Assembly: GCA_025352045.1 (NCBI GenBank)
Contig: JANXUD010000004.1
Location: forward strand, 1 to 40,289
Direction of reading: 5' to 3'
Source of the DNA: Gammaproteobacteria bacterium
Lineage (GTDB): Bacteria; Pseudomonadota; Gammaproteobacteria; Xanthomonadales; Xanthomonadaceae
Length of the DNA: 40,289 nucleotides
In this document: one piece after another, positions 8,264 to 36,730 of the stretch
Position numbering within the stretch: the stretch's first letter is position 1
Layout of the letters: every line of letters starts with the position of its first letter
Notes under the pieces: model-generated
Told to the model about the DNA's origin: nothing
What the model saw: only the letters and a program-made list of their open reading frames with translations
The model's database searches: none
Translations under genes and position numbers: made by a program

Positions 8264-8733
8264 GCGTCCTTCTTGCGCGTGGCGGTCTTGCCTTCGCGAT
8301 CGAGCTTGTTGAGGGTTTCCTTGACCGTGCCGAGCACGCGCATGGTCACGGCGAAGTCGTCGGGGGCCACGCCGTCCAGCACGTCCTCGCGCAACTGCGC
8401 GGCGATGACCTTCATGCCATCCATCACGGCGTCGGACTTGCGCGCCCGGTACAGGCGCCAGCAGCGGCGGTCGTCCGGGTCGGCGCGGCGCTCGACGAAG
8501 CCGGCCGCTTCCAGCCGGTCCAGCACGCGGCCGACGGCGATGGTTTCCATGTCGAGCTCCTGCGCCAGCTCGGTCTGGGTGAGGCCTTCGAAGCGTTCGA
8601 TCCGGCTCAGCGCCATCCACTGGGCCCGGGTCAGGCCCAAGTCGGCGGCGCGGCGGTCGAAGACCCGCCGCAACAGGCGCTGGACGTCGGCGATGGTGTA
8701 GCCGAACTGGGATTTGTCGGTGGAGTCGTTCAT
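8260..8733 (-). CDS. MarR-family transcriptional regulator of the emr operon
   Basis: A 157-residue winged-helix protein. The DNA-binding core is clear: LGLTRAQWMALSRIERFEGL, the recognition region LTQTELAQELDMETIAVGRV, and the wing with the family's DxR pattern (RRADPDDRRCWRLY). MarR proteins bind as dimers to palindromes and usually repress their own operon until a ligand releases them. Here a 14-bp palindrome lies inside the promoter and emrA follows with a 4-bp overlap, so local autoregulation is very likely. The ATG at 8733 falls at the predicted transcription start, so the transcript is probably leaderless. It could also control the adjacent RND genes if they are read through. Confidence 0.93.
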   Translation of the reverse strand: MNDSTDKSQFGYTIADVQRLLRRVFDRRAADLGLTRAQWMALSRIERFEGLTQTELAQELDMETIAVGRVLDRLEAAGFVERRADPDDRRCWRLYRARKSDAVMDGMKVIAAQLREDVLDGVAPDDFAVTMRVLGTVKETLNKLDREGKTATRKKDA

Positions 8734-8740
8734 GTCCCAG

Positions 8741-8769
8741 ATTATAATGTCCTAGGACATCATTAACAA
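8741..8769 (-). promoter_or_regulatory. marR-emrAB promoter with a palindromic operator in the spacer
   Basis: On the minus strand there is a perfect -10 TATAAT at 8746-8741 and a -35-like TTGTTA at 8769-8764, separated by exactly 17 bp. The spacer holds the perfect 14-bp palindrome ATGTCCTAGGACAT at 8747-8760. Allowing one mismatched pair extends the dyad to 8744-8763, overlapping the -10. The start codon at 8733 is 7 bp beyond the -10. A bound MarR dimer here would block RNA polymerase. Confidence 0.8.
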
Positions 8770-8775
8770 CCGGGC

Positions 8776-8799
8776 GTGGGATGGGCTTCAGCCGCGATT
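8776..8799 (+). repeat. REP-like palindromic element, copy A
   Basis: A short element reading GTGGGATGGGC then TTCAGCCGCGATT. It matches two others in this window (8871-8894, opposite strand, and 40254-40277). The core GGCTTCAGCC is a small hairpin. Elements of this form are dispersed in Xanthomonadaceae and Pseudomonas genomes. Confidence 0.6.
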
Positions 8800-8813
8800 G
8801 GGTCTCCCAACAG

Positions 8814-8840
8814 AAAAACCCCGGCGGAGGGCCGGGGTTT
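8814..8840 (-). terminator. Intrinsic terminator of the aldolase gene
   Basis: A perfect 10-bp stem (AAACCCCGGC / GCCGGGGTTT) with a 5-nt loop lies about 65 bp after the aldolase stop codon. On the minus strand the hairpin runs into TTTTT, the classic form. It also separates aldolase transcription from the marR promoter just downstream. Confidence 0.85.
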
Positions 8841-8870
8841 CAGGTTGCTGGAGGGGCGCCGGTGGCGGAA

Positions 8871-8894
8871 GTCGCGGCTAAAGCCGTTCCCACA
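8871..8894 (-). repeat. REP-like palindromic element, copy B (inverted to copy A)
   Basis: On the minus strand this reads TGTGGGAACGGC then TTTAGCCGCGAC, close to the copies at 8776-8799 and 40254-40277. Copies A and B face each other and flank the aldolase terminator, the arrangement of a paired REP element (BIME-like). Confidence 0.6.
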
Positions 8895-8903
8895 GCCGCT
8901 ACA

Positions 8904-9911
8904 TCAACCGGCGGTCCACTGCCCCAGCGCGGCGAGGCCGTTGTCGCGGGCGCGGCCGTAGACGGTTTGCTGGGCGACGGCGACATTGCCGACCAGGTCC
9001 TTCGACCACAGCTTGAGCGCAGCCGACTGCATCGCGCGGCCATAGCTGAAGCTCAGCGGCCAGGGCAGCGGGCCGTACTGGTTCATGGCGTTGAGGTGCG
9101 CGGTGGCGTCGTGGTCGTTCTGGCCGCCCGACAGGAAGACGATGCCCGGCAGCGAGGCCGGCACCGTGCTGCGCAGGCAGCGCAGGGTCATCTCGGCCAC
9201 TTCGTCCACGCCGGCCTGGTCCGGGCAATCCTTGCCCGAGACGACCATGCTGGCCTTCAGGATCGTGCCTTCGAGCATGACGTTGTGGTCGTACAGGGCC
9301 GAGAACAGCGAGCGCAGCACCACTTCGGTGACTTCGTAGCAAATGTCGATGTCGTGGTCGCCATCCATCAGCACTTCCGGCTCGACCATCGGCACGATGC
9401 CCGCTTCCTGGCACAGCGCGGCATAGCGCGCCAGCGCGTGGCTATTGGCCTCGATGCAGGTGCCCGACGGGATGTCATCGCCGATGTTGATCACCGCGCG
9501 CCACTTGGCGAAGCGGGCGCCGAGCAGCGCGTATTCGCGCAGGCGCTCGCGCAGGCCGTCGAGGCCCTCGGTGACCACTTCGCCCGGGAAGCCGGCCAAC
9601 GCCACCGGGCCCTTGTCCACCTTGATGCCCGGCAGGATGCCGGCGTCGGCCATCAGCCGCGCGAACGGAATGCCCTCGCGCGTTGCCTGGCGTAGCGTTT
9701 CGTCGTATAGGATGGCGCCCGAGATGTGCTCGGACAGGTTCGGCGTGCCCAGCAGCATCTCGCGGTAGGCGCGGCGATTCTCCTCCGTGCACTCGATGCC
9801 GACGCCGTCGAAGCGCTTCTTGATGGTCGCGTTGGATTCGTCGATCGCGATGATGCCCTTGCCGGGCGCCACCATGGCCTGTGCGGTTTCAGCGAGGAGG
9901 TCGATGCTCAT
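8904..9911 (-). CDS. fba: Class I fructose-bisphosphate aldolase
   Basis: A 335-residue Schiff-base aldolase of the animal/plant-like class I type, cleaving fructose 1,6-bisphosphate to two triose phosphates. The Schiff-base lysine is K219 in LEGTILKASMV; upstream catalytic-barrel motifs are IIAIDESNATIKKRF (near 20), GIKVDKG (96-101), GARFAKWR (131-138) and VPMVEPEVL (173-181). It lacks the zinc-binding His pattern of class II enzymes. Last in a same-strand run with pgk and pyk, but with its own TATAAT promoter and terminator. The Shine-Dalgarno is weak (GGA about 10 bp upstream) and lies in one arm of the inverted repeat at 9913-9939. The start region shares a 20-bp block with gap, suggesting joint control. 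Confidence 0.95.
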   Translation of the reverse strand: MSIDLLAETAQAMVAPGKGIIAIDESNATIKKRFDGVGIECTEENRRAYREMLLGTPNLSEHISGAILYDETLRQATREGIPFARLMADAGILPGIKVDKGPVALAGFPGEVVTEGLDGLRERLREYALLGARFAKWRAVINIGDDIPSGTCIEANSHALARYAALCQEAGIVPMVEPEVLMDGDHDIDICYEVTEVVLRSLFSALYDHNVMLEGTILKASMVVSGKDCPDQAGVDEVAEMTLRCLRSTVPASLPGIVFLSGGQNDHDATAHLNAMNQYGPLPWPLSFSYGRAMQSAALKLWSKDLVGNVAVAQQTVYGRARDNGLAALGQWTAG

Positions 9912-9912
9912 G

Positions 9913-9945
9913 GGCGGTTTCCGTCAGGGGGAAACCGCCATTATA
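9913..9945 (-). promoter_or_regulatory. fba promoter and inverted repeat sharing a motif with gap
   Basis: The minus strand carries TATAAT at 9945-9940 followed directly by GGCGGTTTCCCCCT. The segment GGCGGTTTCC (9939-9930) is repeated in inverted form as GGAAACCGCC (9922-9913) after a 7-nt spacer, giving a perfect 10-bp dyad between the -10 and the start codon. The block from the -10 to the C run recurs at gap (17526-17507) with two differences. It could be an operator dyad at the transcription start or, if transcription starts early enough, an RNA hairpin over the ribosome site. No good -35 is visible. Confidence 0.65.
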
Positions 9946-9980
9946 CCGGCCGGGCCGGATGACCGTCCCGGACGGTGCCA

Positions 9981-10020
9981 GCGCCAGCGTCAGCGTCAGC
10001 GTCAGCGTCAGCGTCAGCGC
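9981..10020. repeat. Hexanucleotide tandem repeat spanning a stop codon
   Basis: One GCGCCA unit and five perfect GCGTCA units, plus a partial one, run in tandem. The array contains the TGA stop of the small exported protein gene (10016-10014) and extends into the space before the fba promoter. Every unit carries TGA in the same frame on the minus strand, so slippage could not extend the protein; it would only change the spacer length. Confidence 0.85.
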
Positions 10021-10598
10021 CCGATGATCGGCGGGTTCATGACCCGCGCGCGGTCCATGCGGCCCTTGTTGAGGTTGCCGCGGCGGCGGTAGGCATCCGC
10101 CTGCGCCTGCTTCATGAAATCGGGGAGGTCGTCGATCCGGCAATGGCTGCGCACCAACTCGGCATCGGTCGCCGGGCCGCCGAAGGCATAGCTGCTGGAG
10201 GTGAAGATCGCCACCGGCTTGCCCGTCATCGCCGGCGCTGGCGCGTACTTGTGCTGCATCGTCGCCGCCACGGCCATGCGCAAGTACAGGCCATAGGCGT
10301 CCGAGTCGGGGAGGCCCTTGGCGTGCTTGCTGCTCCAGCTGCGCAACAGGGTGAAGTCGGAGGTGCTGCCGTCGGCCTGGATCTGGTAGCCCAGGCTGAC
10401 GCAGACCTGCTCGGTCGCATCGGGCACGCCGGCAGGCACGCCCGGCTGGGCCAGCGCGCCCTTGGGCAGCCAGTAGGAGCCGACGCTGGCTTCGCTGACG
10501 GGCGGCGGCCCCTCTGGAAGGGCCGGTTTGGCCGCATTGGCGGCCGGGCACAGGCCCAGGCCGAGCAGGACGGGGAACAGCAGCTTGTTCGTGTTCAT
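10014..10598 (-). CDS. Small exported protein with a TonB C-terminal-like region
   Basis: A 194-residue protein with a plausible Sec signal peptide (residues 1-22, ending CPAANA). I do not recognise a named family for it. Residues about 60-130 recall the TonB C-terminal fold: a beta-strand stretch VCVSLGYQIQADGSTSDFTL, then an Arg/Ser-containing turn and a helix LYLRMAVAATMQHKYAP, as in exported TonB-like proteins that lack the membrane anchor. Two cysteines in the mature part could form a disulfide. The start at 10598 is chosen because it gives the signal peptide; the frame extends 12 codons further. It lies 69 bp after pyk on the same strand and may be read through from it. Confidence 0.7.
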   Translation of the reverse strand: MNTNKLLFPVLLGLGLCPAANAAKPALPEGPPPVSEASVGSYWLPKGALAQPGVPAGVPDATEQVCVSLGYQIQADGSTSDFTLLRSWSSKHAKGLPDSDAYGLYLRMAVAATMQHKYAPAPAMTGKPVAIFTSSSYAFGGPATDAELVRSHCRIDDLPDFMKQAQADAYRRRGNLNKGRMDRARVMNPPIIGR

Positions 10599-10667
10599 GG
10601 GGGTCTCGCGCAGAGTGTCAGGGGATTGCAACACGCCGGCCGCGCTGGGCGCCCGGGCCGGAAGTAA

Positions 10668-12134
10668 CTACAGCTCGCCCATGCCCTCGGCGCTGCCGCC
10701 CGCACCCACCTGCAACAGGCGCAGCGTGTTGGTGCTGCCGTGGGTTTCCATGTGGTCGCCGCTGGTGATCAGCACGCGGTCGGTCTCGGCCAGCAGGCCC
10801 ATGCCGAACAATTGCCGGATCGCACCGCGCGCAGCTTCCCGGGTCGGCAGGCCGCGGCTGTCGAAGGCCACCGGAAACACGTCGCGCATCATCGCCATCT
10901 TGCGCCGCGCGGACTCATGCCGCGACAGGGCGAAAATCGGCACCGATGAACGGAATCGCGACAGGAAGCGCGCTGTGCCGCCGGACTCGGTGAGCGCGAG
11001 CATGGCCCGCACCTTGGTGTGCTCGGCCAGGAACATGCCGGCCATGGCGATCGCCTGGTCGGCGCGTTGCAGGCCGCGCGGGGCTTTCTCGAAATCGGTG
11101 TCGCGGTCGAACTGGCGCTCGGCGCCCAGGCAGATGCGCACCATCGCCTCGACCGCCTTGACCGGATAGTTGCCCGAGGCGGTCTCCGCCGACAGCATCA
11201 CCGCGTCCGTGCCGTCGATGACGGCGTTGGCCACGTCGAGCACCTCGGCTCGGGTCGGGATCGGGTTGTCGACCATGGACTGCAGCATCTGGGTGGCTGT
11301 GATCACCACGCGGTTGTGCTCGAGCGCGGTGCGGATGATCTTCTTCTGCAGGCCGGGCAGTTCCGCATCGCCGATCTCCACCCCCAGGTCGCCGCGCGCC
11401 ACCATCACCACGTCGGAGGCAATCGTGATTTCGACCAGGTTCTCGATCGCCTCGGCGCGCTCGATCTTGGCCACCAGGGCGGCGTCGCTGCCCGCGGCTT
11501 GGGCCAGGGCGCGGGCGCGATCCATGTCGGCCGCAGAGCGGCAGAAGGACACCGCGAGGAAATCGACCCCGAGCCTGGCGGCGATCTTGATGTGCTCCTC
11601 GTCCTGTTCGGTGAGGGCGCCGAGCGAGAGGCCGCCGCCGAGCCGATTGAGGCCCTTGCGGTCGGACAGCGCGCCGTCGGTCATCACCCGGGTGCGCACC
11701 AGCTCGCCGTCCACGGCGGTCACCTGCAGCGCGATCAGTCCATCGTCCAGCAACAAGATGTCGTCGGCGTGCACGTCGCCGACCAGGCCCAGATAGCTCA
11801 CGCCCACCTGGGTCGCGTCGCCGGGCGGCGCGTCGGCGCGGCAGACCAGGGTGAAGGCATCGCCGGCCTTGAGCACGACCTTGCCCATGGCGAATTTCTC
11901 AATCCGGATCTTGGGCCCCTGCAGGTCGGCCAGGATGCCCACTTCGCGACCCGCGCTCAGCGCCGCGGCGCGCACTGCCGCAACGCGCGCGCCGTGGTGC
12001 TCGGGCGTGCCGTGCGAGAAATTCAGGCGCACCACGTTGACGCCGGCGCGGATCAGTTCATCGAGCACGCCCGGGGCATCGGTGGCGGGGCCCAGCGTGG
12101 CCAGGATCTTGGTGCGTCGCAAATCGGGGGTCAT
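10668..12134 (-). CDS. pyk: Pyruvate kinase
   Basis: A 488-residue type II-like pyruvate kinase making pyruvate and ATP from phosphoenolpyruvate and ADP. Motifs in order: RTKILATLGPATD and VNVVRLNFSHG near the N-terminus, LQGPKIRIEKF, a B domain, LVAKIERAEAIENL (active-site lysine), VMVARGDLGVEIG (metal and substrate loop), ITATQMLQSM and MLSAETASGNYPVKAVE, then the C-terminal allosteric domain. The start at 12134 gives the standard N-terminus (MTPDLRRTKIL) with GAGG upstream. It begins 37 bp after the aldo/keto reductase gene, so joint transcription with it and perhaps pgk is likely. No copy of the fba/gap start-region motif is seen here. Confidence 0.96.
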   Translation of the reverse strand: MTPDLRRTKILATLGPATDAPGVLDELIRAGVNVVRLNFSHGTPEHHGARVAAVRAAALSAGREVGILADLQGPKIRIEKFAMGKVVLKAGDAFTLVCRADAPPGDATQVGVSYLGLVGDVHADDILLLDDGLIALQVTAVDGELVRTRVMTDGALSDRKGLNRLGGGLSLGALTEQDEEHIKIAARLGVDFLAVSFCRSAADMDRARALAQAAGSDAALVAKIERAEAIENLVEITIASDVVMVARGDLGVEIGDAELPGLQKKIIRTALEHNRVVITATQMLQSMVDNPIPTRAEVLDVANAVIDGTDAVMLSAETASGNYPVKAVEAMVRICLGAERQFDRDTDFEKAPRGLQRADQAIAMAGMFLAEHTKVRAMLALTESGGTARFLSRFRSSVPIFALSRHESARRKMAMMRDVFPVAFDSRGLPTREAARGAIRQLFGMGLLAETDRVLITSGDHMETHGSTNTLRLLQVGAGGSAEGMGEL

Positions 12135-12171
12135 CGGGGTCGCCTCGGGTCTGGGCGAAAAACTAACACGC

Positions 12172-13173
<1,002 letters not shown>

Positions 13174-13226
13174 GCCTGTCTCTCCGAGGGGGTCCTCCAG
13201 CATAGGCCCGCGCGGATGCCGTTTGG

Positions 13227-14405
13227 TTAAACCGCTGCGCGCGCCTGCAGCGCGACCACGGCGGGCAGGGGCTTGCCCTCGCAGAACTCGAGGAACGCGC
13301 CTCCGCCGGTGCTGATGTAGCCGATGCCAGCGGCCACGCCGTACTTGTCCACCGCCGCCAGGGTGTCGCCGCCACCGGCGATCGAGAAGGCCTTCGAGGC
13401 GGCGATCGCTTCGGCCAGCACGCGGGTGCCTTCGCCAAACGCGTCGAACTCGAACACGCCCACCGGGCCGTTCCACAGTACGGTGCCCGCCGCGGCGACC
13501 AGCTGCGAATAGCGCGCCGCGGTCTTCGGGCCGATGTCCAGGATCATGTCGTCGGGGCCCACGTCGGCCACCGCTTTCACCGTCGCCATCGCATCGGCGG
13601 CAAAGCGATCGGCAACCACCACGTCCTCGGGCATCGGGATATGCGCGCCACGGTCATCGGCGTCGGCCATGATCGCGCGCGCCGTGTCGACCAGGTCGTG
13701 CTCGCACAGCGACTTGCCGACCGGCAGCCCGTTCGCCGCCAGGAAGGTATTGGCGATGCCGCCGCCGACGATCAACTGGTCCACCTTGCCGACCAGGTTG
13801 CCCAGCAACTCCAGCTTGGTCGAGACCTTGGATCCGGCGACGATGGCAAGCAGGGGCCGCTTCGGCGCTTCGAGCGCTTTCGCCAGTGCATCGAGTTCGG
13901 CCATCAGCAAGGGACCGCCGCAGGCGACGGGTGCAAGGCGGATCACGCCATGCGTGGACGCCTGCGCGCGATGTGCGGTACCGAAGGCGTCCATCACGAA
14001 GATGTCGCAGAGCGCGGCGTACTTCCTGGCCAATGCCTCGTCGTCCTTGCTCTCGCCCACGTTCATGCGGCAGTTCTCGAGCAGCACGATCTCGCCCGGC
14101 GCCACCTGCACGCCGTCGGCCCAGTCGCGCAGCAGGGGCACCGGGCGGCCGAGCAGGTCCGCCAGCCGCGCAGCGACGGGCGCCAGCGAATCCTCGGCGC
14201 TCCAGGCGCCTTCCTTCGGCCGGCCCAGGTGCGATGTGACCATCAGCGCGGCGCCGCGCTCGAGCGCAAGCCTCAGCGTCGGCAAGGCCGCCAGCAGGCG
14301 CTGCTCCGAGCTGATCCGTCCGTCCTTGACGGGCACGTTGAGGTCTTCGCGCACCAGCACGCGCTTGCCCCGCAGGTCCAGGTCGCTCATCCGCAGGATC
14401 GGCAT
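13227..14405 (-). CDS. pgk: Phosphoglycerate kinase
   Basis: A 392-residue two-domain kinase interconverting 1,3-bisphosphoglycerate plus ADP with 3-phosphoglycerate plus ATP. The signature is [18 protein letters not shown] near residue 12. Further motifs are [10 protein letters not shown]-like [51 protein letters not shown] and [15 protein letters not shown] at the C-terminal nucleotide site. The open frame continues about 300 codons upstream, antisense to sua5, but the true start is the ATG at 14405 ([14 protein letters not shown]), with GGAG upstream. It is divergent from sua5. Its start region shares CGGGGGAAAATGC with tkt. Confidence 0.96.
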
Positions 14406-14431
14406 CGCCAAGGCTCCATTCGTCGAAGGCT

Positions 14432-14444
14432 GCATTTTCCCCCG
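14432..14444 (-). promoter_or_regulatory. pgk start-region motif shared with tkt
   Basis: The minus strand reads CGGGGGAAAATGC. The identical 13 bases occur upstream of transketolase at 23394-23382. GAAAAT (14439-14434) could be a -10 hexamer, giving a leader of about 22 nt, but no strong -35 is visible. The pairing with another central-carbon gene suggests a shared regulatory site. Confidence 0.5.
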
Positions 14445-14488
14445 GCGCGGGGCGCAGGTACAGGCCACGCCGAAATCCGCGCCTGTGG

Positions 14489-14538
14489 GAGAATCATCCA
14501 TGGCCAACTCCGTGCCCCGATCCGCCCCCGCGCCATGA
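14489..14538 (+). promoter_or_regulatory. Possible sua5 promoter with a 12-codon upstream reading frame
   Basis: A -10-like GAGAAT (14489-14494) is followed by ATG at 14500. That ATG opens a frame of 12 codons ([12 protein letters not shown]) whose TGA at 14536-14538 overlaps the sua5 start codon as ATGA. The sua5 ATG itself has no Shine-Dalgarno, only C-rich sequence. The small frame could be translated from a nearly leaderless message and feed ribosomes to sua5. The promoter lacks a clear -35. Confidence 0.4.
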
Positions 14539-15512
14539 GCGATCCCGCGCCCGCCATCGCCGAGGCCCTCGATGCGCTGCGCCGCGGCGAAGTGATCGGC
14601 CTGCCGACCGAAACCGTCTACGGACTGGCCGCCGACGCCTCGAACGCAGACGCCGTGCGGCGGATCTTCGCGCTCAAGGGCCGTCCCGCCGACCACCCGG
14701 TGATCGTGCACATCGCCGACGCATCGGCATTGCGGCGCTGGGCGCGTTCGGTTCCCGCGCCGGCGCAGGCACTGGCCGCGGCATTCTGGCCCGGGCCGCT
14801 GACCCTGATCCTGCCACGTCAGTCCAGCGTGGCCGATGTCGTGACGGGCGGCCAGGACACCGTTGGCCTGCGCTGCCCGTCGCATCCGCTCGCGCTGTGC
14901 CTGTTGCGGGAGTTCGGCGGCGGCCTGGCCGCGCCTTCGGCCAATCGCTTCGGACACATCTCGCCGACCAGCGCGGAGCACGTGCGCGCGGAATTCGGCG
15001 ATGACGTGCCGCTGGTGCTCGATGGCGGCGACTGCGAAGTCGGCATCGAAAGCACGATCGTCGCCTTCACCGGCAGCCGCCCACGCATCCTGCGCCCGGG
15101 CCGGATCACCCGCGCAGAAATCGAGGCGGTGGTCGGAACCGTGGATGCCGGCGTCGACAGCGGCAGTCCGCGCGCCTCGGGCACGCTGGAAGCACACTAC
15201 GCGCCGCGCACGCCGATGTTGCTGCTGGCCCGCGCGGCGCTTGAGGTCGAGGCGAGGCAGCAGGCGGCGCTCGGCAAGCGGGTGCGCGTGCTTGCGCTGG
15301 ACGCCTTGCCGGCCAACGTGCAGGGCCTCGTGCTGCCGGCACGCGCGGCCGACTACGCCCACGGCCTGTACGCCGCGATGCGCGCGCTGGACGAAGGTGG
15401 CGGACAGTTGCTGCTGGTCGAACGGCCGCCGGCCGGCCCTGGCTGGCTGGCCGTGCAGGACCGGTTGCGGCGCGCTGCGGCGGGCGCCGAGCCAGGCGAC
15501 GATTCGCCTTAG
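14535..15512 (+). CDS. sua5: Threonylcarbamoyl-AMP synthase, Sua5 type
   Basis: A 325-residue enzyme that makes L-threonylcarbamoyladenylate from threonine, bicarbonate and ATP, the first step of the universal tRNA modification t6A37. Residues about 1-200 form the YrdC domain: [74 protein letters not shown] and GIESTIVAF. The remaining ~100 residues ([17 protein letters not shown] onward) are the Sua5 domain absent from short TsaC proteins. It is divergent from pgk. The start codon has no visible ribosome site and overlaps the stop of a small upstream frame. Confidence 0.94.
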
Positions 15513-15569
15513 CGGACCCGCCGCCGCCGTGGCGGCCGCCCACCCAAGGGTCGTTGGCTTGCGACTGCG

Positions 15570-16463
15570 CTAGTGCTGTCGCGCTTGCGGCGGCTGCGCA
15601 GCCAGTTCATGCGACAGCAGCCACGGCACCAATTCCGCCTCGGAGTAGGCGTGATCCCAGGAATTGTGGTTCGCGTCCGGATACTCGCTGAAGCGCACCT
15701 CGCCGCCCAGCGCGCGCATCGCCACGTCCATGCGGCGCGCATTGAGCACCGGCACCGCGTCATCGAGGGTACCGTGGAAGATCCACACCGGCACCGGGCC
15801 GATACGCCTGGCGAACGCTGCCGACGGATCCGCGGCGAGGGCCTCGGGAAACTCCTTGGTCAGCAGCGCATCGTCGGCCGGATCCAGGACGTCGTCGTCG
15901 TCCTTCAGGCGCAGGAAGCCGCAGACCGGCGCAATCGCCGCAAACCGGCCGGGATGCGCCGCGGCGAGGAGCCACGTCCCCTGCCCGCCAATCGACAGTC
16001 CCGTCAGGTAGACGTGCCGGGGGTCGCCATGGAATTCGGCCATCGCGGCGTCGAGCGCCTGCATCGCCATGGCGTCCATCGCACCATGCCAGCGCCTGTT
16101 GGGGCGCAGCTGCGGCATCACCACGATCATCGGGAAGCGCGCGCGGTCGTTGCGGATTGCCGCCGGCAGGCCGACAGCCGTCTGGTGCAGGCCGTCGTCG
16201 CCGCGTTCACCCGAGCCGTGCAGGAACAGCGCCACCGGCCATTGCCTGTCCGGCGTGTAGTCGGCCGGCACGAACACCTGGTAGCGATAGGCCACGCCGT
16301 CGACGGTGATGCTGCGGTCGAGGAATCCGGTCGGCATGGTCTGCATGGTCGGCCTGGCCTGCATGGCACGCTGGGTGGACTTGCCTGCGGCCAGGGCCGG
16401 ACTGCCCGCGCCCGCGGCAAGCGCGAGCACGAGGCCGGCCACCGCGACGCGCAGGCCGCGCAC
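15570..16463 (-). CDS. Secreted alpha/beta-hydrolase, probable esterase (CE1 / PHB-depolymerase-like)
   Basis: A 297-residue protein with a Sec signal peptide (about residues 1-25, ending SPALA). The mature part has the alpha/beta-hydrolase order: VALFLHGSGERGDD (oxyanion region), the nucleophile elbow GLSIGGQG with S157, the acid in FHGTLDDAVPV (D234 or D235), and the base in DANHNSWDHAY (H266 likely). The DGLHQTAVGLP segment and nucleophile context resemble feruloyl-esterase/lipoprotein-type depolymerases. The substrate is not identifiable. The start is a GTG at 16463, one base after the gap stop codon; the signal peptide needs this start. Coupling to gap would give high expression. Confidence 0.82.
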   Translation of the reverse strand: MRGLRVAVAGLVLALAAGAGSPALAAGKSTQRAMQARPTMQTMPTGFLDRSITVDGVAYRYQVFVPADYTPDRQWPVALFLHGSGERGDDGLHQTAVGLPAAIRNDRARFPMIVVMPQLRPNRRWHGAMDAMAMQALDAAMAEFHGDPRHVYLTGLSIGGQGTWLLAAAHPGRFAAIAPVCGFLRLKDDDDVLDPADDALLTKEFPEALAADPSAAFARRIGPVPVWIFHGTLDDAVPVLNARRMDVAMRALGGEVRFSEYPDANHNSWDHAYSEAELVPWLLSHELAAQPPQARQH

Positions 16464-16464
16464 C

Positions 16465-17478
16465 TTACCTGGCCGCCATCAGCGCCGCGGTCATGTCGAG
16501 CATGCGGTTGCTGAAGCCCCACTCGTTGTCGTACCAGGCCAGCACCTTCACCAGCGTGCCGCCGGTGACCTTGGTCAGCGTGCTGTCGTAGACCGAGCTG
16601 CGCGGGTCGTGGTTGAAGTCCACCGACACCAGTGGCGCCGTATTGAAGCCAAGGATGCCCTTGAGCGAACCCTTGCTGGCTTCCAGCACGGCGGCGTCGA
16701 TCTCGTCCTTGGTGGTCGCGCGCGCGGCGACGAAGCACAGGTCGACCACCGACACGTTGATGGTCGGCACGCGCATCGCGAAGCCATCGAGCTTGCCGTT
16801 CAATTCGGGAAGCACCAGGCCCACCGCCGCCGCGGCACCCGTCTTGGTCGGGATCTGCGACATCGTCGCGCTGCGGGCGCGCCGCAGGTCGGAGTGGTAG
16901 ACGTCGGTCAGCACCTGGTCGTTCGTATACGCATGGATGGTCGTCATCAGGCCGTGCACCACGCCGATCTTCTCGTGCAGCACCTGGACCAGCGGCGCCA
17001 GGCAGTTGGTGGTGCAGGAGGCGTTGGAGATCACGGTGTGCGACGCGGTCAGCTTGTCGTGGTTGACGCCGTAGACGAAAGTGCCGTCCACGTCCTTGTC
17101 GCCGGGCGCGGAGATGATGACCTTCTTCGCGCCGCCGGCGATGTGCGCGCCGGCCTTGGCCTTGGAAGTGAACAGGCCGGTGCACTCGAGCACCACGTCT
17201 ACGTCGTGCGCGCCCCAGGGGATATCGGCCGGGTTGCGCACCGCGTACACCTTGATGCGGTCGCCGTTGACGATGATGTCGCCGCCGTCGGCGGAGACTT
17301 CGCCGGGGAACTTCCCGTGCGCGGTGTCGTACTGGGTCAGGTGGGCGTTGGTGGCCGCGTCGCCGAGGTCGTTGATGGCGACGACCTGGAACTCGCCCTG
17401 CCGGCCGGACTCGTAGATGGCGCGCAGCACGTTGCGGCCGATGCGTCCGTAACCGTTGATCGCGACCTTGATCGCCAT
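16465..17478 (-). CDS. gap: NAD-dependent glyceraldehyde-3-phosphate dehydrogenase
   Basis: A 337-residue glycolytic dehydrogenase converting glyceraldehyde 3-phosphate to 1,3-bisphosphoglycerate. The Rossmann motif [14 protein letters not shown] opens the protein. D37 in INDLGD favours NAD over NADP. The active-site cysteine is C155 in [13 protein letters not shown], and [10 protein letters not shown] carries the partner region. The start at 17478 has CAGGAG 8-9 bp upstream; an upstream GTG at 17505 lacks one. The gene runs directly into a secreted esterase gene and is divergent from the nuclease gene. Its start region matches that of fba over 20 bp. Confidence 0.96.
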
Positions 17479-17505
17479 GGGCAAGCTCCTGGGAATGAGG
17501 GACAC

Positions 17506-17526
17506 TAGGGGGAGACCGCCATTTTA
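17506..17526 (-). promoter_or_regulatory. gap promoter block shared with fba
   Basis: The minus strand reads TAAAATGGCGGT then CTCCCCCTA. TAAAAT (17526-17521) fits a -10 hexamer; the following GGCGGTCTCCCCCT would lie over the transcription start. Compared with fba (9945-9925) only two of the first 20 positions differ. Unlike fba, there is no inverted second arm. The -35 region is GC-rich and unconvincing. Confidence 0.6.
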
Positions 17527-17585
17527 TCGCCTGCGGCCGGCCCGGCGACACCCCCGCGCGCGCCGGCGCGGCCAGGAACCATGCC

Positions 17586-18440
17586 ATGCGCCCTGCCGCC
17601 AGCTACCTGACCTGCCTGTTCGTCCTGGTTGCGGCCCTGCTGGCGCCTGCACCCGCCGGTGCCTGGGGCCGCGATGCGCATCGAATCGTCGCCGACCTGG
17701 CACAGGCTCGCCTGAATCCCGTGGCGCGCGCGGAGGTCGCCAGGCTGCTCACCCTCGAGCCGGCCGCCACGCTCGCCGATGTGTCCAGCTGGGCCGACGA
17801 CCAGCGCCGGGACGGGCTGGCCGAGGTTGCCGGCAGCCCGGCTGACCGGCGCACGCACTTCGTCGATTTCATGGGCGGCTGCGAGTACGTGCAGGCACGC
17901 GACTGCCCCGACGGCCGCTGTGTCATCGCCGCGATCAACCGCCAGTTCCTCGTGCTGTCGGACGCACATCGCCCCGACGCCGAGCGCCTGGTCGCCCTGA
18001 AGATGCTGGTGCACCTGGTCGCCGACGCGCACCAGCCCCTGCACGCCTCGCCCGTGGACGACAAGGGTGGCAACGACTACCAGGTGTCAGTGGACGGCCA
18101 GGGCAGCAACCTGCATGCAGTCTGGGACCGGCTGCTGCTGGACCACGCGCTGGCGAAGGACGGGCGTGACGCCGCGGGCTTCACCGCAGGCCTGCAGGCG
18201 ATGCCACCCCTGCCCGCGGATGCAACGGCGCAGTCCGACCGCCCGGCGCTGGACTGGGCGCTGGAGAGCTGCCGCCTCGTGCGCGATGGTGGTGTTTACC
18301 CACCAGGCCACGTGATCGGCGATGACTACCTGGACGCACACCGCGGACAGATGGAGACGCGCCTGCGCCGCGGGGGTGATCGCCTGGCCGATATGCTCAA
18401 CGATGCCCTGGATCCGTCGAGCAGGAGACCACTGCCATGA
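17586..18440 (+). CDS. Secreted zinc-dependent S1/P1-type nuclease
   Basis: A 284-residue exported nuclease of the S1/P1 family, which cuts single-stranded nucleic acids to 5'-mononucleotides. The signal peptide (1-26) ends just before W27, so the mature N-terminal Trp can serve as zinc ligand as in P1. All expected metal ligands are visible: W27, H32, D71, H91, H143, D147, H153, H177 and D181 (in AWGRDAH, DVSSWADD, HFVDF, HLVADAHQPLH, NLHAVWD). Cysteines at 99, 107 and 112 could form disulfides. The ATG at 17586 has AGGA upstream; another ATG 5 bp earlier is out of frame. First gene of an operon whose next genes are joined by overlapping stop and start codons. Confidence 0.92.
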   Translation: MRPAASYLTCLFVLVAALLAPAPAGAWGRDAHRIVADLAQARLNPVARAEVARLLTLEPAATLADVSSWADDQRRDGLAEVAGSPADRRTHFVDFMGGCEYVQARDCPDGRCVIAAINRQFLVLSDAHRPDAERLVALKMLVHLVADAHQPLHASPVDDKGGNDYQVSVDGQGSNLHAVWDRLLLDHALAKDGRDAAGFTAGLQAMPPLPADATAQSDRPALDWALESCRLVRDGGVYPPGHVIGDDYLDAHRGQMETRLRRGGDRLADMLNDALDPSSRRPLP

Positions 18441-18469
18441 GGGCAGCGCCATGAGGGCAGCGCCATGAC
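18434..18469 (+). repeat. Tandem 14-bp Shine-Dalgarno/ATGA cassette at the gene junction
   Basis: GCCATGAGGGCAGC occurs twice in tandem (18434-18447, 18448-18461) followed by a partial third GCCATGAC. Each unit carries ATGA and a GAGGG ribosome site. The first ATGA overlaps the nuclease stop. The ATGs at 18437 and 18451 each open a five-codon frame (MRAAP) whose TGA overlaps the next ATG, the last of these being the true start of the persulfide dioxygenase at 18465. The result is a chain of three stop/start overlaps. Confidence 0.85.
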
Positions 18470-19328
18470 ACAGCCGGACATCCATGCCCGCCACCACGCC
18501 GACACCGGCACCTGGTCCTACATCGTGTCCGATCCGGCCACGCGGGCCGCGGCGATCATCGATCCGGTGCTCGACTACGACGCCAAGGGCGCACGCACGG
18601 GCACCAAGGAAGCCGAGGCGCTGCTGGCGCATTGCGCGGCCGAAGGCCTGCGCGTGGACTGGATACTGGAAACGCACGCGCACGCCGACCACCTCAGTTC
18701 CGCCGCCTGGCTGAAGTCCAGGCTCGGCGCGCCGGTTGGCATCGGCGTGGGGATCCGCGCCGTGCAGTCGGCGTTCAAGCCCATCTTCGGCCTGCCTGCC
18801 GATTTCGCAACGGACGGCTCGCAGTTCGACCGCCTGTTCGCGGATGGCGAGCGCCTGCCGCTAGGCGCGCTCCAGGTCGAAGTCATCGCCACCCCCGGCC
18901 ACACCAGCGACAGCCTCAGCTACCGGATCGGCGACGCGGTTTTCGTCGGCGACAGCCTGTTCCTGCCCGACGGCGGCAGCGCGCGTTGCGACTTCCCCGG
19001 GGGCGACGCCGGCGTGCTGTACGACTCGGTGCAGCGCCTGTATGCGCTGCCGGACGCGACGCGCGTGTTCGTCTGCCATGACTACGGCCCGGGCGGCCGC
19101 GCGGTGCAATCGCAAACCACCATCGGCGCGCAGAAAGCCGGCAATATCCACGCCCGTGCCGGCGTGTCGCGCGAGGAATTCATTGCCATGCGCAACGCGC
19201 GCGACGCGACGCTCGCCCTGCCCGCGCTGATCCTGCCCGCGGTGCAGGTGAATATCCGCGCCGGCGCGCTGCCGCCGGCCGACGCGGATGGCCGGCGCTA
19301 CCTGCGCCTGCCCATCGACACCCTCTGA
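18465..19328 (+). CDS. blh: Blh-type metallo-beta-lactamase-fold persulfide dioxygenase
   Basis: A 287-residue MBL-fold hydrolase. The metal motif is HAHADH with H71, H73, D75 and H76, followed by TPGHTSDSLSYRIG, FVGDSLFLPDGGSARCDFPGGDA and FVCHDYGPGG. The sequence through IGAQKAGNIHARAGVS and ILPAVQVNIRAG closely follows the Blh group (Xylella/Agrobacterium bigR-blh), related to ETHE1 persulfide dioxygenases that oxidise glutathione persulfide during sulfide removal. The iron-binding set fits that role rather than beta-lactam hydrolysis. No BigR-type repressor or rhodanese is next to it. The ATG at 18465 has GAGGG 8 bp upstream within the 14-bp repeat; the stop overlaps the next start as TGATG. 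Confidence 0.87.
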   Translation: MTQPDIHARHHADTGTWSYIVSDPATRAAAIIDPVLDYDAKGARTGTKEAEALLAHCAAEGLRVDWILETHAHADHLSSAAWLKSRLGAPVGIGVGIRAVQSAFKPIFGLPADFATDGSQFDRLFADGERLPLGALQVEVIATPGHTSDSLSYRIGDAVFVGDSLFLPDGGSARCDFPGGDAGVLYDSVQRLYALPDATRVFVCHDYGPGGRAVQSQTTIGAQKAGNIHARAGVSREEFIAMRNARDATLALPALILPAVQVNIRAGALPPADADGRRYLRLPIDTL

Positions 19329-36650: not shown

Positions 36651-36700
36651 GGGGAATCCTGCGGTATGACAGCTGGGGTGTTGCGGCGGAAAAGACACCC

Positions 36701-36730
36701 ATTGTAGCCGTCAGGCCCCGACTCACGCAA
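36701..36730 (-). promoter_or_regulatory. rpmE2 promoter
   Basis: TACAAT (36706-36701) on the minus strand fits a -10 hexamer. TTGCGT (36730-36725) may be the -35, with an 18-bp spacer. The leader would be about 44 nt. Confidence 0.6.

Follow-up and report, generated by a model that had tools for sequence, protein, structure and literature searches.

What is the function of a 20-base block that precedes two glycolytic genes in nearly identical form? The genes are fba, for class I fructose-bisphosphate aldolase, and gap, for type I glyceraldehyde-3-phosphate dehydrogenase, and they lie in a stretch of 40,289 nucleotides (hereafter the window) from a Gammaproteobacteria bacterium of the Xanthomonadaceae (contig JANXUD010000004.1, positions 1 to 40,289). 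The initial annotation had attributed the block to a common regulator of fba and gap or to a control of both genes through their initiation sequence. We consider it quite probable that the block forms the core region of two promoters of the sigma-70 type, each with a pyrimidine-rich initiator, and that a number of housekeeping genes in this lineage have the same layout. In such a promoter a strong -10 hexamer would be followed by a G-rich discriminator and then, about 6-12 bases after the -10, by the initiator, a T/C tract (often YTTCC or TTTCC) at which transcription would be expected to initiate. The sequence of the block would thus be read by RNA polymerase itself and not by a repressor or activator. 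A subset of housekeeping promoters appears to use the layout in the family of this bacterium and, by counts, in a second one of the order, family f12. The elements concerned are as follows.

9945-9926, minus strand: shared block TATAATGGCGGTTTCCCCCT upstream of fba, 14 bases before the fba ATG
9940..9945, minus strand: -10 hexamer TATAAT of the putative fba promoter, from sequence
9926..9939, minus strand: G-rich discriminator and pyrimidine tract GGCGGTTTCCCCCT of fba, from sequence and genus conservation
about 9933-9930, minus strand: likely fba RNA start, positions 7-10 after the -10, placed from apparently leaderless genes
8904..9911, minus strand: fba, class I fructose-bisphosphate aldolase, ATG at 9911 (NF033379.1, E 3.9e-153)
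17526-17507, minus strand: shared block TAAAATGGCGGTCTCCCCCT upstream of gap, 28 bases before the gap ATG
17521..17526, minus strand: -10 hexamer TAAAAT of the putative gap promoter, from sequence
17507..17520, minus strand: G-rich discriminator and pyrimidine tract GGCGGTCTCCCCCT of gap, from sequence and genus conservation
16465..17478, minus strand: gap, type I glyceraldehyde-3-phosphate dehydrogenase, ATG at 17478 (TIGR01534.1, above its cut-off)

The two blocks were identical at 18 of 20 bases, so that the similarity first noticed, with its two differences, is upheld; both do lie on the minus strand, with ends one base away from those first assigned and corrected in the list above. Allowing up to three mismatches, the block pattern had no match in the window beyond the fba and gap sites and none in 100 dinucleotide shuffles of the window. 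Four matches were obtained in the 3.0 Mb genome at the same threshold, and none with the reversed pattern; the two perfect ones were the fba and gap sites only. The likeness of the two blocks is therefore real.

Its components were also found together at other genes. The pattern TANAAT-N5-9-TTTCC occurred seven times in the own genome and its reversed form not once. All seven sites precede gene starts (coxB, rimO, pyrG, ilvE, an acyl-CoA dehydrogenase gene, fba and rpmE), at a distance to the start of the open reading frame of 131 nt for coxB and of 11-37 bases for the other six. The rpmE site lies in the window.

36688..36706, minus strand: same-layout site TACAATGGGTGTCTTTTCC before rpmE, the gene of ribosomal protein L31 (type B), from the pattern search

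The ilvE start reads TAAAATGGCGGTTTCCCGGA and includes GGCGGTTTCC, one arm of a dyad present at fba (see below). The ilvE frame itself (L088:1528-2361) resembles its family at residues 5-196 only; beyond them the similarity is lost, as if a frameshift had occurred, be it an assembly error or real.

A search of the own genome with STAWAAT gave 62 sites against 34 for reversed controls. Of these, 60 were read with their flanks, the fba site was taken from the window and one site was left out. Removing ten apparently leaderless sites and one duplicate (L171 = L150) from the 60 and adding fba resulted in a set of 50. In 13 of the 50 sites a T/C tract fell within positions 5-13 downstream of the -10; at positions 15-23 this was so in 2 of the 50 (Fisher p 0.004, for a tract pattern picked after the data had been seen). 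T was the base at position 8 in 18 of the 50 sites (background 0.13, p 4e-5). Tract carriers include guaB, gltX, gcvT and the gene of an iron-sulfur assembly protein.

The ten apparently leaderless sites give an indication of where RNA begins. In these, among the 60 sites read, the ATG of a long frame falls at position 7 (five sites), 8 (two), 9 (one) or 10 (two) after the -10 (L136, L149, L154, L158, L161, L170, L172, L177, L124 and L157). All ten proteins have Pfam matches; they include a cyclophilin, an ApaG-domain protein, an ABC protein, an asparaginase and a HAD hydrolase, as well as a PTPS-family protein, an acyltransferase and a UbiE-family methyltransferase. If these ten mRNAs are leaderless, RNA starts about 7-10 bases after the -10. 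Positions 7-10 read TTCC at fba and CTCC at gap, and the apparently leaderless genes thus suggest that RNA of fba and gap starts inside the pyrimidine tract. The polymerase could instead start at a G of position 5 or 6.

We then turn to conservation of the tract within the genus, for which the search comprised 27 genomes. Starts were aligned for fba in 25 (one genome had no match and one upstream was stopped by a contig end), gap in 25 (G280 and G286, with fragments or a paralogue only, were left out), guaB in 26 (G280 left out), pyrG in 22 (three genomes had no match, G283 and G286 a partial one), gltX in 24 and gcvT in 25. Three gltX upstreams lacked a -10 at the required spacing: it abuts the ATG in G287 and G288, and in G271 a tract is present and the leader is short. 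For gcvT, the mostly found GATAAT box was accepted; G280 and G287 had none. The -10 of gap reads TAAAAT or TAGAAT in 25/25 sites. G was absent from positions 7-11 at all fba (25/25), guaB (26/26) and pyrG (22/22) starts, at 24/25 gap, 17/25 gcvT and 13/24 gltX starts. Positions 8-10 were all T or C in 18/25 for fba and for gap, 26/26 for guaB, 22/22 for pyrG, 17/25 for gcvT and 8/24 for gltX, and a YTTCC-type motif was found at gap (19/25), guaB (20/26), pyrG (22/22), gcvT (17/25) and gltX (7/24). These counts, with those for the motif at fba given below, indicate that the tract is kept while its individual bases change, to the greatest extent at fba and gltX. The most constant starts were those of pyrG, with TTTCCA at positions 6-11 in 22/22 genomes (TTTCCAGCG in 18, TTTCCAACG in 4), and of guaB, where CTTC at positions 7-10 is invariant (26/26). 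By comparison, none of the 25 fba and 25 gap starts carried the exact 20-base block except those of the own genome.

Orthologues of fba were also compared in a set of 81 upstreams (80 relatives and the window) whose nearest named members are Xanthomonadales, among them Arenimonas metalli; the upstream sequence of A. metalli locus L006 is the same as that of genome G275 of the window's genus, which makes Arenimonas the probable genus. In all 81, a hexamer resembling the -10 (TANAAT or TATACT) was found no more than 160 nt upstream; at least five pyrimidines occupy positions 7-12 in 65, and TTTCC occurs in the start region of 27. The arm GGCGGTYTCC is present in 1/81, the window itself. The same rule for the -10 recovered 20 of 30 gap upstreams, several of the 30 gap genes being paralogues of about 48% identity; of these 20, the pyrimidines are present in 11, TTTCC in 8 and the arm in 2, namely the window and a paralogue in L079 with 48% identity. 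Conservation of the block at fba and gap orthologues was accordingly not observed. In Xanthomonas and some relatives (L048, L052, L055, L060, L064 and L066), a dyad such as CATTCCGTGAAGGAATG precedes the fba -10 by about 15-35 bases and may represent an operator or the terminator of the preceding gene.

To what extent is the layout shared by other families? We counted TAWAAT-N5-8-TTTCC against the reversed pattern in 121 genomes of the order. The own family f1, probably the Xanthomonadaceae (19 genomes), had 63 against 9 and family f12 (18 genomes) 77 against 11. With the spacing widened to N15-18, a control summed for f1 and f12 only, the counts were 13 to 9 and 20 to 13, respectively. A weak excess was seen in f7 (159 to 100) and f9 (84 to 46), and none in f8 (486 to 575), where counts are high on both sides; families f2-f6, f10 and f11, with 30 genomes, together gave 31 to 22. 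TATAAT-N6-TTTCC showed no excess in 149 genomes from other families of the class (181 versus 203 reversed).

Several observations weigh against a general promoter layout as the explanation of the block. A consensus scan of 8500-18500 returned one promoter-like site (8769-8741) and none at fba or gap; the scan was strict, and a weak or absent -35 is compatible with a sigma-70 promoter. Judged on sequence, the fba and gap blocks would thus work like sigma-70 promoters by their -10, with no -35 recognised 16-18 bp upstream. The YTTCC-type motif is found at only 8/25 fba sites of the genus, where the tract is variable, and fewer than five pyrimidines occupy positions 7-12 in 16/81 fba upstreams, including six Rhodanobacter loci, a point that would bear on f12 if that family is Rhodanobacteraceae. 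No convincing gene follows L173 and L180, which are among the 13 tract sites of the own genome. A first profile of 118 sites in relatives contained 61 fba, 16 gap and 41 other sites, and of the 32 non-leaderless ones among these 41 TTTCC was present in 2, a much weaker signal; since that profile is mostly fba and gap, the generality of the layout rests on own-genome sites, order-wide counts and genus alignments. Lastly, fba and gap resemble each other more closely than other starts do. Among 64 own-genome sites (one identical duplicate pair set aside) they form the closest pair, with 13 of the 14 bases after the -10 equal against 11 for the runner-up, a closeness reached by 5 of 1000 column shuffles; the objection is weak, and some private relation is possible. 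In a plain permutation excluding the own genome, fba and gap shared 7.04 of 14 bases within genomes versus 5.86 across (p 0.0003), the largest excess of 15 gene pairs at fixed register.

Such a private relation would follow from a dedicated regulator binding GGCGGTYTCC, as a dyad at fba and a half-site at gap, and coupling both genes. The 18/20 identity of the only two perfect matches in the genome argues for it, and so do the perfect dyad at fba, the closest-pair result and the within-genome excess of the plain permutation, in which relatedness was not controlled. When a one-base shift was allowed, however, fba-gap came second (p 0.003) behind gap-gcvT (p 0.0003), with fba-gltX also prominent. 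With the two nearest relatives, chosen by guaB DNA, as control, the fba-gap excess fell to 0.38 of 14 and was not significant (p 0.15); fba-gcvT had the same excess (0.38) and gap-gltX 0.43. Close forms of the block also precede unrelated genes: GGCGGTTTCC is found before ilvE, and in G278 and G285 gcvT starts with GGCGGTCTTTCC or GGCGGTCTTCCC, which is very close to the gap block. Together with the rarity of GGCGGTYTCC among orthologues, the lack of the exact block at any other fba or gap start read in the genus and the occurrence of the layout at coxB, rimO, pyrG, ilvE, acyl-CoA dehydrogenase and rpmE, this makes a dedicated regulator very improbable, and a private fba/gap operator was rejected. 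The resemblance of fba and gap would be explained by the closeness of both to the same promoter consensus. The proposal of an initiation-sequence control fares better in part: the shared bases would indeed belong to the -10 and the RNA start, in a manner shared by a set of housekeeping promoters rather than peculiar to these two.

The dyad at fba was considered separately.

9913..9939, minus strand: perfect 10-bp dyad GGCGGTTTCC-N7-GGAAACCGCC, arms 9939-9930 and 9922-9913, over the presumed fba start and leader

The dyad exists as initially described; at gap a single arm is present, and it differs at one base (GGCGGTCTCC). The window contains five perfect dyads whose arms span 10 bp or more around a loop of 3-12, compared with an average of 1.4 for 10 random windows generated by a first-order Markov model, and a single one at fba is therefore unremarkable. 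A dyad of at least 8 bp lies between -10 and start in 6/81 fba upstreams, every one different in sequence, and arms of this kind were not seen by eye at fba across the genus. The fba dyad is thus not conserved and probably incidental. It could otherwise form an mRNA hairpin hiding the ribosome-binding site and control fba translation, a proposal we hold to be scarcely credible. The leader does fold well from position 1 after the -10 (-19.5 kcal/mol, z -3.4), which requires an RNA start right after the -10 and hence too early. From position 4 (GGUUUCC) the energy was -12.3 kcal/mol (z -1.5), and from position 6 (UUUCC) it was -5.1 kcal/mol (z 0.27), with 118 of 200 shuffles folding at least as well. 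As the arm is moreover confined to the window among the 81 upstreams, the hairpin was rejected as a likely mechanism. More can be said for the pyrimidine initiator as a metabolite-sensing start, at which UTP or CTP levels, or slippage in the T3 and C5 runs, would tune central metabolism. The apparently leaderless genes would place +1 at positions 7-10, the tract is kept through the genus, and pyrG, encoding CTP synthase, has the constant TTTCCA described above. RNA polymerase could, however, start at the G of position 5 or 6, and the carriers include genes without a tie to nucleotides (coxB, ilvE and rpmE); we regard this explanation as rather unlikely, and that a T/C start renders these promoters UTP- or CTP-sensitive or prone to slippage is speculative. 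Extending it, one may picture that the own family and one or more related ones possess a lineage-specific class of housekeeping promoters which start RNA with UUUCC or CUUCC and share nucleotide-sensitive or slippage-controlled initiation at fba, gap, guaB, pyrG, gcvT, ilvE and coxB. Such a class appears distinctly unlikely; if true, it would be a bacterial counterpart of a 5′ pyrimidine-tract gene set. We retain the sigma-70 type promoter core with a pyrimidine-rich initiator as the preferred explanation.

Some features surround these promoters. The gap and fba genes belong to a one-strand glycolytic cluster, together with a PHA depolymerase-like open reading frame, a phosphoglycerate kinase region and pyruvate kinase. 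A GTG at 17505 was rejected as the gap start because orthologues use the ATG at 17478. Just upstream of the fba promoter, at about 10020-9978 of the minus strand, there is a short tandem run of CGCTGA/CGCTGG hexamers, which sits around the stop of the reading frame preceding fba. By eye, REP-like palindromic stretches were found to adjoin several -10 boxes or to lie within about 25 bases upstream of them (L124, L127, L158 and L161 of the own genome and the fba upstreams of G075 and G275). They end in GCCGCTCCCAC (GCCGCTTCCAC in L158) or GTCCCTCCCACAG, as if an interspersed repeat had supplied or abutted the promoter.

The analysis puts a promoter feature, testable throughout a bacterial group, in the place of a supposed two-gene regulator. 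Should RNA indeed start in the T/C tract, promoter prediction and growth control would be affected in the Xanthomonas, Stenotrophomonas and Lysobacter group. Neither a pyrimidine initiator in this group nor a shared fba/gap regulator was described in the titles and abstract beginnings among the matches listed, which is no proof of absence. Start maps by differential RNA sequencing (dRNA-seq) are reported for Xanthomonas campestris pv. vesicatoria and Stenotrophomonas maltophilia (PMC3744752, PMC4098767), and the motif search in the latter source used only 20 nt upstream of mapped starts (PMC4098767). The general pyrimidine-initiator feature may be new, or may already be visible in published start maps.

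How do these promoters compare with known systems? Genes like fba and gap are controlled by Cra/FruR or HexR in other gammaproteobacteria; the consensus sites of these regulators do not appear to resemble GGCGGTYTCC, and the block described here is not restricted to glycolysis. The sigma-70 core promoter is matched by the TATAAT or TAAAAT -10, the short G-rich discriminator and a presumed start 7-10 bases on, and is departed from by the unrecognisable -35 in the consensus scan and by a pyrimidine tract at the expected start. Bacterial promoters generally prefer a purine at the RNA start, so that initiation in the T/C tract, if it takes place, would be a departure from the usual purine starts at many housekeeping genes. 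In Gram-positive bacteria pyrG is subject to CTP-dependent control. Here too pyrG has a strongly conserved initial sequence, although the lineage is Gram-negative and the initial sequence another one. Finally, the start sites of pyrC, codBA and upp in Escherichia coli are under pyrimidine-sensing control. The carriers described here are mostly not pyrimidine genes, but the T/C run at their presumed start could, as in that system, make initiation dependent on UTP or CTP.

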